Assembly: GCF_001625015.1 (NCBI RefSeq)
Contig: NZ_LVWJ02000014.1
Location: forward strand, 4,030,001 to 4,094,000
Direction: 5' to 3'
DNA length: 64,000 nt
From: Lewinella sp. 4G2
Lineage (GTDB): Bacteria; Bacteroidota; Bacteroidia; Chitinophagales; Saprospiraceae
Part shown: positions 34,508 to 64,000 of the stretch, piece by piece
Layout of the letters: each line of letters opens with the position of its first letter
How positions within the stretch are numbered: position 1 is the first letter of the stretch
The notes under the pieces: model-generated
Database searches by the model: none
The model's input: only the letters and a program-made list of their open reading frames with translations
What the model was told of the DNA's origin: nothing
Translations under genes and position numbers: made by a program

Positions 34508-34722
34508 GCTGCCGCTGTTTCATAGCTACCGCTGTTTCATGGCTGCCGCTGTGGAAGATATGTGATATGCGATATTTGATAGGTGATATTTGATTTGGCT
34601 ACCGCTGTGAGAGATATGGGATATGGGATATTTGATAGGTGATTTTTGATTTGGCTACCGCTGTTTCATGGCTGCCGCCGTTACCTAGCTACCGCTATTT
34701 CATGGCTACCGCTGTTACGTTT
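34508..34722 (+). repeat. 17-bp tandem/dispersed repeat tract
   Basis: Eight copies of GCTRCCGCTGTTTCATG or its first 11 bases, at 34508, 34525, 34542, 34598, 34654, 34671, 34689 and 34706. Adjacent copies have a 17-base period. Between them are AT-rich stretches based on GATATGCGATAT and TTTGATAGGTGAT. The last copy forms one arm of the terminator hairpin at 34706-34740. No gene is supported in 34464-34786. Confidence 0.8.
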
Positions 34723-61689: not shown

Positions 61690-61763
61690 GCTAATTGTTG
61701 CGGCTCATCTGCGGAACGTAAGGGGTGGATTTTTGTGTGGTGGTGGCTGAAGTTTATGTTCAC

Positions 61764-63079
61764 CCGGACGCTCGCAGGACCTCCTCCGTCGGACGCTACG
61801 AGGACCTGGAGAAGTTGGTAGTTGATGAATATTTAATTTCCACTAAGGACCTCGTAGCGTGGTCAAAACGCGCGCAGCAAGGTTTGAGCTCCTGCGAGCG
61901 TCCGGTAAATCGCCGAGTATATCCGGTTCAGCCGGACGCTCGCAGGACCTCCTACGTCGGACGCTACGAGGACCTGGAGAAGTTAGTAGTTGATGAATAT
62001 TCTACTTCCACTAAGGACCTCGTAGCGTGGTCAAAACGCGCGCAGCAAGCGTTGAGCTCCTGCGAGCGTCCGGCAAAACGTGGTGTTTACGGTTCAGCCG
62101 GACGCTCGCAGGACCTCCTCCGTCGGACGCTACGAGGACCTGGAGAAGTTGGTAGTTGATGAATATTTTACCTCCACTAAGAATCTCGTAGTGTGGTCAA
62201 CGGGCGCGCAGCAAGCGTTGAGCTCCTGCGAGCGTCCGGCCAAACGTGGAGTTTACGGTTCAGCCGGACGCTCGCAGGACCTCCTCCGTCGGACGATACG
62301 AGGCCCTGGAGAATTTGGTAGTTGATGAATATTTAATTTCCACTAAGGACCTCGTAGCGTGGTCAAAACGCGCGCAGCAAGGTTTGAGCTCCTGCGAGCG
62401 TCCGGTAAATCGCCGAGTATATCCGGTTCAGCCGGACGCTCGCAGGACCTCCTCCGTCGGACGCTACGAGGACCTGGAGAAGTTGGTAGTTGATGAATAT
62501 TCTACTTCCACTAAGGACCTCGTAGCGTGGTCAAAACGCGCGCAGCAAGGTTTGAGCTCCTGCGAACGTCCGGTAAATCGCCGAGTATATCCGGTTCAGC
62601 CGGACGCTCGCAGGACCTCCTCCGTCGGACGCTACGAGGACCTAGAGAAGTTGGTAGTTGATGAATATTTAATTTCCACTAAGGACCTCGTAGCGTGGTC
62701 AAAACGCGCGCAGCAAGGTTTGAGCTCCTGCGAGCGTCCGGTAAATCGCCGAGTTTATCCGGTTCAGCCGGACGCTCGCAGGACCTCCTTCGTCGGACGC
62801 TACGAGGACCTGGAGAAGTTAGTAGTTGATGAATATTCTACTTCCACCAAGGACCTCGTAGCGTAGTCAACGCGCGCAGCAAGCGTTGAGCTCCTGCGAG
62901 CGTCCGGCCAAACGTGGAGTTTACGGTTCAGCCGGACGCTCGCAGGACCTCCTCCGTCGGACGCTACGAGGACCTGGAGAAGTTGGTAGTTGTCTGATCT
63001 CCCCCCGTCTCCCATAGCTCCCCGTAGCGTCGATGCTATTGTAGCGCAGCGGAAATAGGATCGTCCTGCGAGCGTGCGG
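61764..63079. repeat. array of about 167-bp units with nested inverted repeats
   Basis: Seven full units start at 61764, 61932, 62098, 62264, 62432, 62600 and 62768 (lengths 168, 166, 166, 168, 168, 168, 164); a degenerate eighth starts at 62932 and keeps only its first 60 bases and the last arm (63064-63079). Each unit has an outer dyad GGACGCTCGCAGGA/TCCTGCGAGCGTCC, an inner dyad CGGACGCTACGAGGACC/GGACCTCGTAGCGT, an AT-rich loop (GAATATTTAATTTCCAC) and one of two linker types (GGTAAATCGCCGAG or CAAAACGTGGTG-like). The inner and outer 5' arms resemble each other. Reading frames through it break at the 166-bp units, so I call it non-coding. Confidence 0.92.
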
Positions 63080-63112: not shown

Positions 63113-64000
63113 TCACCCCCCCAACTCACCAAGCATACTTTCCAAATAACGCCGGTGGTTCGCCAACCTAGGCACCTTGTGCTGCCCACCCTGTTTTCCG
63201 CGGTTCTTCAGCCAGGTGCGGAAGAAGCCTTTGGGCACCACCGTTAGCTCTTGCCGGTGGATGGCGAAGTCGTTGCTCCGTTTTGCTTTGTAGTTGTAAT
63301 TGGCCTCCTGCAGCGCGAGGTCCAACGACTCCGCGAAGGACGATAGCGATGCCGGTAATTCCTCGAATTCGACGAGCCAGTGGTGACTACCGCTCTTCCC
63401 CAGTTCGATGTAGACCGGGGCAACGTGGAAGTCGGCGATGCTACAATCGTGGCGGGTGCAGGCGTCCAAGATCGCGCCTTCCGCTTCAGAGCGCAACAGG
63501 TCCTCCCCGAAGGCATTGACGAATTCCTGCGTGCGGCCAATGATCTTGATGCGGTAAGGATCCACCTCAGTGAATTGGAGGAGATCACCCATCGGGTAGC
63601 GGTAGAGACCGGCTTCGGTGGTGATGATCATCACGTAAGTGACGTCCAGCTTTACGCCGGAGAGAGGAACGCTGGTCAGGTCATCCAGCTTGTAGGCATC
63701 CCACGGGATAAACTCGTAGTAGGCGCCCGTATTCAGCAGGAGGAGCATACTGCGCAGCTCATCTTTATCCTGGACGCCGAAGAATCCTTCCGTCGCGTTG
63801 TAAATCTCCTGGAAAATGAAATCCTCTCGGGGGAAGAGTGCCTCAAACTGGGCGCGGTAGGGTTCAAAGTTCACGCCGCCATGTTTGAAGACGCGGGCTT
63901 CGGGCCAGACGTCGACCATGGAATCTCCACCTGCCAGGTCTAGGATCTTCCGGTATAGGGGAAGGTTCCAGGTGGGTACGCCACCCAGGACGGTGATCCC
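63113..64000 (-). CDS. GH3 family acyl-adenylate-forming protein, 5' end outside window
   Basis: The frame is open to the right edge: 295 residues of the C-terminal half are visible and the N-terminus is missing (an internal ATG at 63919 is not the start). GH3 features: LGGVPTWNLPLYRKIL, ARVFKHGGVNFEPY, EIYNATEGFFGVQD, TTEAGLYRYPMGDLLQF, KIIGRTQEFVNAFGEDLL and a C-terminal domain up to the basic end KNRGKQGGQHKVPRL. Plant GH3 enzymes conjugate auxin or jasmonate to amino acids; bacterial ones have unknown substrates. It lies upstream of the ATP-grasp-like gene on the same strand. Confidence 0.9.
   Translation of the reverse strand, partial: GITVLGGVPTWNLPLYRKILDLAGGDSMVDVWPEARVFKHGGVNFEPYRAQFEALFPREDFIFQEIYNATEGFFGVQDKDELRSMLLLLNTGAYYEFIPWDAYKLDDLTSVPLSGVKLDVTYVMIITTEAGLYRYPMGDLLQFTEVDPYRIKIIGRTQEFVNAFGEDLLRSEAEGAILDACTRHDCSIADFHVAPVYIELGKSGSHHWLVEFEELPASLSSFAESLDLALQEANYNYKAKRSNDFAIHRQELTVVPKGFFRTWLKNRGKQGGQHKVPRLANHRRYLESMLGELGG

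Follow-up and report, generated by a model that had tools for sequence, protein, structure and literature searches.

A tandem array in Lewinella sp. 4G2 is probably a cluster of gene-less mobile palindromic repeats related to RAYT elements of congeners

The window analysed here is a 64,000-nucleotide stretch of the Lewinella sp. 4G2 genome, and close to its end a tandem array of hairpin-forming units lies between two genes. On one side is a GH3 gene (63113-64000, cut by the window end), an assignment of the initial annotation that Pfam supports; its NCBIfam match is to the lyso-ornithine lipid synthetase OlsH (238 bits, cut-off 620). The neighbour on the other side, previously called an ATP-grasp gene, is a 413-aa ORF without a Pfam or NCBIfam match at E ≤ 0.001. 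The array itself spans 61758-62992, with a period of 168 and 7.4 copies according to TRF. A separate cluster of short tandem repeats, with periods of 14, 17, 34 and 56 (TRF), is found at 34508-34718. The features of the array, identified by comparison of repeats and units unless another basis is given, are as follows.

61764-61905, + strand: unit 1, type A (left half 61764-61807, AT-rich loop, right half 61846-61905)
61872-61878, + strand: GCGCAGC tip of the right-half hairpin of unit 1, a C(GCA)G triloop motif (from the sequence)
61906-61931, + strand: linker 1 of seven (24 or 26 bp, two kinds; from linker comparison)
61932-62073, + strand: unit 2, type A
62098-62239, + strand: unit 3, type A
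62264-62405, + strand: unit 4, type A
62432-62573, + strand: unit 5, type A
62600-62741, + strand: unit 6, type A
62768-62907, + strand: unit 7, type A, 140 bp, with a shortened small-hairpin stem
62932-63079, + strand: unit 8, type-A left half with an intact type-B right half (from units with the same right end elsewhere, and from the fold)

Each unit is composed of a left half of 44 bp, a loop of about 38 bp and a right half of about 60 bp, followed by the linker. The halves are imperfect inverted copies of each other that flank the loop, which was rightly described as AT-rich (32% G+C). They can pair with each other in an outer dyad of 16 pairs (in unit 1, 20-nt arms are 95% complementary) and an inner dyad of 11 pairs plus 3 more; the two-level design proposed earlier therefore stands, with amended lengths in place of 14 bp for the outer and 13-17 bp for the inner dyad. 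The right half contains a third element, a small hairpin with the tip GCGCAGC. The seven units of 164-168 bp first reported are recovered by TRF and by a repeat search, which places successive units at spacings of 168, 166, 166, 168, 168, 168 and 164. The eighth, taken for a degraded copy, is instead a complete unit with the second subtype of right end, type B, which recurs in 20 other units extracted from the same genome (21 in total). Linkers do come in two kinds but do not alternate: in order, they measure 26, 24, 24, 26, 26, 26 and 24 bp and follow the series T, C, C, T, T, T, C. The outer arms are, as had been noted, the best conserved part of the array's seven type-A units (98-100% mean pairwise identity), against 93-96% for the inner arms, 91% for the loop, 90% for the small hairpin and 82% for the linker. 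With non-identical units on a contig of 4.17 Mb, the array is no simple assembly artefact, its unit count being that of the assembly. Nor is it a coding repeat: open frames cross parts of it, but the spacings of 166, 166 and 164 among those of 168 break the multiple of three, and periods of 137-190 in the tandem arrays at other loci of this genome exclude it as well.

Two units, 1 and 8, were folded and compared with dinucleotide shuffles. Both are strongly structured on either strand with RNA or DNA parameters, at z-scores of -5.3 to -7.3 (unit 1, -6.3 RNA and -7.0 DNA; unit 8, -5.3 to -7.3), and fold quality is about equal on the two strands. Folded alone, the right half reaches a z of about -2 and the left half does no better than shuffles (+1.4 RNA, +1.6 and +1.1 DNA), a result that counts against a RAYT/REPIN reading of the array; the left half of one relative (locus L068) folds alone at -2.7 to -2.8. 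Selection on the fold, or repeated gene conversion, had been suggested from the start; covariation of the arms is seen in type-A units but not in type B. Across 40 type-A units of the genome 95.3% of cells are paired, 60 cells carry two-sided changes against 18.4 in shuffles, a count inflated by relatedness among the units, and the covariation score is 0.150, compared with 0.075 for shuffled and at most 0.088 for slid alignments. In type-B units the signal is absent (0.066 against 0.062, with 80 of 500 shuffles equally high).

Pairing inside each half is equally compatible with the covariation. Where the two pairings compete in type-A units, the within-half structure has a score of 0.259 and the between-half structure one of 0.233, both including the common small hairpin. 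Inside the left half, columns 13 and 35 form AU in 21 units and GC in 19, with zero exceptions, and columns 10 and 38 form CG in 33 and UA in 7; under between-half pairing, column 13 would form G.U in 18 units and column 35 would lack a partner in 17. The arms might instead have been matched by template switching and gene conversion of inverted copies, with no selection on the fold, in an inert repeat of unknown origin. Known mutational processes include quasi-palindrome correction, and some of the covariation counts could result from template switching of inverted copies; the missing signal in type B and the greater likeness of units within a locus than between loci would agree with such a history. 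Correction would, however, remove both the mismatch that leaves one left-half stem position unpaired in 36 of the 40 type-A units and the U.G found at this position in 31 of the 40 right halves. The triloop tips, moreover, keep their G and A and a fixed strand polarity while the middle base varies, and we regard an origin by correction as highly improbable.

The family extends well beyond the window. With one unit as BLAST query, 71 matches are obtained in the same genome, and 32 clusters were counted over 28 regions, mostly short tandem arrays between genes. In this count the L009 array, split by an IS3 element, contributes two clusters and the L018 region four; at least two further places with model matches, C14:2553513 and C14:1083576-1084027 among them, lie outside it. 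None of the 32 clusters lies inside a gene, and three overlap a predicted gene end by 2-36 bases, where gene ends come from a simple ORF caller (coding fraction of the window, 0.894). Within a cluster nearly all units share one direction, with the left half before the right; some cluster ends carry stray left halves, and at L026 a right half is followed by a left half. The IS3-like element (HTH_Tnp_1 orfA, rve orfB), at about 2292-3757 of L009, sits in a linker of that array with a 3-bp CTA duplication and is thus a passenger, which disposes of an IS3-derived repeat.

A covariance model built from the 40 type-A units matches 12 of 21 genomes of the genus, the 4G2 genome included (E ≤ 0.01, both strands). 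Together with the BLAST matches, this removes the possibility, raised at the outset as a refutation, that the units occur only here with no conservation of their arms elsewhere. Tandem arrays are also found beyond the 4G2 genome: congener G001 carries one of ten units with a period of 133 (G001:C36:630497-631809). The position of the array is not conserved: none of 20 congener GH3 orthologues has a model match in its flanks (up to about 1.5 kb per side), as judged by a model that can miss diverged units and with some of the flanks ending at contig ends, and the neighbouring 413-aa ORF is absent at these loci. An exact-pattern scan of named genomes, from which near relatives may be missing, gave 11 stretches with one match each in groups unrelated by title, read as chance. 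Among viral contigs one contains a 17-base pattern, but its 13-kb stretch has no model match at E ≤ 0.01.

The initial annotation had offered three roles: a structured RNA, a protein-binding array and a non-autonomous mobile repeat. A fold kept for the host as a structured RNA, or as a cis-regulatory or terminator element, would account for the strong folding, the compensatory changes and the placement of clusters close between gene ends. Cluster neighbours are co-directional in 20 cases, convergent in 7 and divergent in 5, compared with 11, 2 and 9 among the 22 window gaps of at least 100 bp, a small baseline. Yet five of the 32 clusters do lie between divergent genes, and between co-directional genes the element follows the gene strand in 8 cases and opposes it in 12, so that element strand is unrelated to gene strand. 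The near equality of the fold on both strands and the 20 congener GH3 loci without a unit by this model also argue against the RNA, as does Rfam, in which the array has no credible match (one hit, E 0.65); no match at gathering score was found in loci of three relatives. Similar placement is, besides, reported for REPs generally (PMC3733652), and a structured RNA or host regulatory element is distinctly improbable. The array may have a protein-binding role. It is the mobile repeat that the remaining evidence favours: the units are dispersed, their position is not conserved, and in two congeners halves flank RAYT genes, one of these congeners also having a form with target duplications, as described below.

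Units of relatives elaborate the same plan. Among 20 folded with RNA parameters, many form a four-way junction in which small hairpins flank the inner stem on both sides, and their GNA-type triloops stand on opposite strands; with DNA parameters several lose the small hairpins in the minimum-energy fold, which counts against the RAYT reading. Tip motifs were counted in 30 cluster representatives, all from relatives and found with the type-A model of 4G2, against 2000 single-base shuffles. C(GNA)G tips the right side in 19 (1.2 in shuffles), a count that leans to the motif because the search model contains the GCGCAGC tip. The complement C(TNC)G occurs on the left side in 13 (0.8 in shuffles), a count free of this bias because the left halves of 4G2 lack a small hairpin; roughly half of the left segments do not have the length for such a hairpin. 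The shuffle maxima are 6 and 6, and the opposite polarity is seen 2 and 1 times. In the 4G2 genome the right-hand motif is present in 39 of 40 type-A and 18 of 21 type-B units. GNA loops form extraordinarily stable DNA minihairpins (PMC6479982); such hairpins in general are treated in PMC10527192.

Y1_Tnp genes are found in 20 of the 21 genus genomes, with 70 matches in total, and none of these loci, searched with the model in sets of 34 and 36, reaches E ≤ 0.01. A reading of the family as not linked to RAYT (Y1, HUH) transposases was overturned once weak model matches around Y1 loci were read; as these proved informative, the cut at E ≤ 0.01 was too strict. At L252 in G015 (model E 0.016, unit 19.6 bits) a full unit at 1286-1392 is followed by a left half (1437-1481), a Y1 gene (ATG at 1516, to 2112), a right half (2116-2191) that begins 3 bases past the stop codon, and another left half (2221-2272). 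The encoded protein scores 25.1 bits with Pfam Y1_Tnp (cut-off 23) and 51.8 bits with NCBIfam REP_Tyr_transpos, under the cut-off of 80. In BLAST, the unit at this locus hits one from G003 (E 2.5e-6). Within G015 it finds 23 matches at E ≤ 1, of which 19 reach E ≤ 0.001, including 4 at L252 itself.

The second case, L251 in G019, was missed by the covariance model and found through its protein, which is 44% identical to that of L252 and is the sole other tblastn match (E ≤ 1e-5) among the 70 loci. Here too a left half, a Y1 gene and a right half follow one another, and the right half overlaps the stop codon. Compared with an ordinary G019 unit, neither the left nor the right half is equalled in 1000 shuffles, and the same holds for the halves against the 4G2 left half at L021; against unit 1 of the window the similarity is weaker (54 and 15 of 1000 shuffles as good). 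In all, halves of the family flank 2 of 27 RAYT loci tested. Of the remaining 25, which have other repeats or none, 24 belong to further genera of the taxonomic family and one to G017 within the genus; two had flanks too short to score. Two weak candidates were rejected: L111 in G008 (E 0.013), which has an outer stem and small hairpins near a Y1 gene, and L242 (E 0.066), both with arms unlike the family and no BLAST match.

In the 4G2 genome none of seven Y1-type genes (six by PF01797, L266 by protein similarity) is flanked by this family, and several bear other repeats. At L266 (G000 C14:2050984-2054610) a different Y1-like transposase gene stands amid repeated long hairpins (GTCGTCGGACGAT...), which reach 19.1 bits with the model over the outer stem only (E 0.0012, filters off, 6.9 kb searched). 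By reading, these hairpins are a different REP-like family, though their score is near the 19.6 bits of the G015 unit; the latter is placed in the present family because of its whole layout and its BLAST match to the G003 unit.

The array is thus probably a cluster of tandem BIME/REPIN-type repeats, palindromic, mobile and without a gene of their own, which are tied to congeners' RAYT elements. What is observed directly is the family with its dispersal, the covariation of the type-A arms, and the order of left half, transposase and right half in two congeners. Because the Y1 gene of G015 and G019 occupies the place of the loop between the halves, ordinary units are best read as the gene-less form of the element. 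The tie between the array in the window and RAYT elements would follow from its homology with these congeners. A transposase would recognise the folded single strand and copy units around the genome, and the array may then have grown by unequal recombination or slippage between units. As no such transposase gene was found in the 4G2 genome, its copies are either orphans or were served by a gene that has since been lost or that acts from another place. Besides the points on folding already given, this reading is weakened by the seven Y1-type genes of the 4G2 genome without these halves, by the 70 Y1 loci negative at E ≤ 0.01, by the small share of RAYT loci with the halves (2 of 27), by the missing GTAG at the hairpin foot, by the absent covariation of type B and by the 9-bp duplications of G019.

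The layout is a familiar one, and the first impression that no named family shares it holds only in part; the literature that was searched yielded no description of this particular family; the main text of the RepRanger paper contains neither 'Lewinella' nor 'Saprospir' (PMC12306157). In a BIME a linker lies between a REP and an inverted REP, and copies often follow one another in tandem (PMC8266576). The units here likewise have two inverse palindromic halves with a linker that make a larger hairpin, occur between genes in high copy number as singles, pairs and tandem copies, and have a related transposase, here in congeners. They also keep a stem mismatch, as do E. coli REPs, in which repair of the conserved mismatch eliminated or severely affected activity, although selection experiments enriched it only moderately (PMC8266576). 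They differ from BIMEs and REPINs in their longer halves (about 44-75 nt versus 20-40), in the extra small hairpins and in GTAG not standing directly at the hairpin foot. Within the loop, 25 of 40 type-A units have a GT[AG]G where shuffling predicts 7.5, and 14 of 21 type-B units where it predicts 1.5; the motif is mostly 28-29 nt ahead of the right half, and the units counted are interrelated. A RAYT gene flanked by the same repeats is present in G015 and G019 but not in the 4G2 genome.

Three further groups of repeats invite comparison. TIRtrons and TIRYTs are Y1 transposase genes between terminal inverted repeats, some of them 'double palindromic'; in both these and the present family a gene is bracketed by long, partly self-complementary inverted repeats that elsewhere form dimers or clusters (PMC3733652). 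A Y1 gene between genome-recurring inverted repeats is found at L252 and, by the similarity of its halves, at L251, but not in the window's genome, and the gene-less tandem arrays are larger here, in a comparison of descriptions. TnpA_REP subclass 2.6, mostly from Bacteroidetes, has 'atypical secondary structures' (PMC6006769) and shares with the family such structures without a GT[AG]G foot and further copies around the genome; in print its structures are termed weaker, whereas the present ones are strong. Among CGTC-tagged REPs dimers predominate, clusters are rare and stems measure 8-9 bp, and in the survey they are at the flanks of no transposase gene (PMC3733652); a CGTC is present in the left half here. 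The array is best placed as a variant within a known class, that of REPIN-like units without a gene, here amplified in tandem.

In two congeners the core is enclosed in a different kind of element. All 27 copies of a 142-bp core examined in G019 lie within a pair of inverted-repeat outer arms, 20 and 22 bp long, and they are flanked by 9-bp target duplications with 95.1% identity at length 9 (19 of the 27 perfect), compared with 28-34% at lengths 7, 8, 10, 11 and 12 and 33.1% for shuffled flank pairing. A pattern search for the outer repeat gives 62 hits in G019 but 0 in the 4G2 genome, where a reversed control pattern has 3, and a variant of it is absent from the 20 genus genomes other than G019. 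G003 cores sit in two other outer repeats, one of which has weaker duplications of 7-9 bp (0.82 at length 7 and 0.71 at length 9, from 7 of 9 copies scored, 2 being dropped, as the best of 16 length and offset combinations). Duplications of 9 bp are not expected of a Y1 enzyme and indicate a different chemistry. At the ends of two G019 contigs a similar terminal repeat is found, with an ATG after it; this is likely an autonomous copy lost in assembly. The search for a DDE partner in G019 gave these contig ends only, and a plasmid search two short uninformative matches.

The units could accordingly be MITEs of a cut-and-paste (DDE-type) IS, with the core as the inside of long terminal inverted repeats and the RAYT link incidental. 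The inverted arms, duplications and contig ends of G019, with the outer repeats of G003, are what such an origin predicts. Against it, five cores without these arms exist in G019 itself, outer repeats vary by species while the core stays recognisable, and the left half / RAYT / right half order at two loci is left unexplained. Terminal inverted repeats with a 9-bp duplication belong to the G019 form only, the core is not tied to one outer repeat, and the array in the window has linkers and no such arms. A MITE origin for the family as a whole is therefore unlikely, and the RAYT-related repeat of BIME/REPIN type is retained, with the core in G019 having also spread inside a terminal-inverted-repeat element that makes the target duplications.

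A more specific version of this BIME/REPIN reading, which we put forward tentatively, is a modular REPIN whose halves each present an extra-stable GNA minihairpin, one per strand. Such halves would have served two unrelated chemistries, as the ends of RAYT (HUH) elements and as cargo in several cut-and-paste MITEs, and would then have formed arrays. The strand-fixed GNA tips and the kept mismatch would in that case be strand marks for a transposase acting on single strands. REP families without an attached transposase, such as the CGTC repeats, are an open puzzle. With a gene-bearing form, gene-less tandem arrays and a target-duplicating form in one genus, the steps from active element to orphan become directly comparable, and the question of whether hairpins with GNA tips are read by a REP transposase becomes open to simple biochemistry.

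Two minor observations concern the surroundings of family members. At L200:1972-4997 (G019) a 97-bp unit lies between two co-directional ORFs that by eye resemble a helicase and a GIY-YIG-type nuclease. Two other short repeats, AGTCTATAGTCTGTAGTC-like and GTCTAAAATCTAAAATC-like, recur beside arrays, in the flanks at L019, L020 and L027 and in linkers or flanks at L009, L016, L019, L024, L028 and L030.
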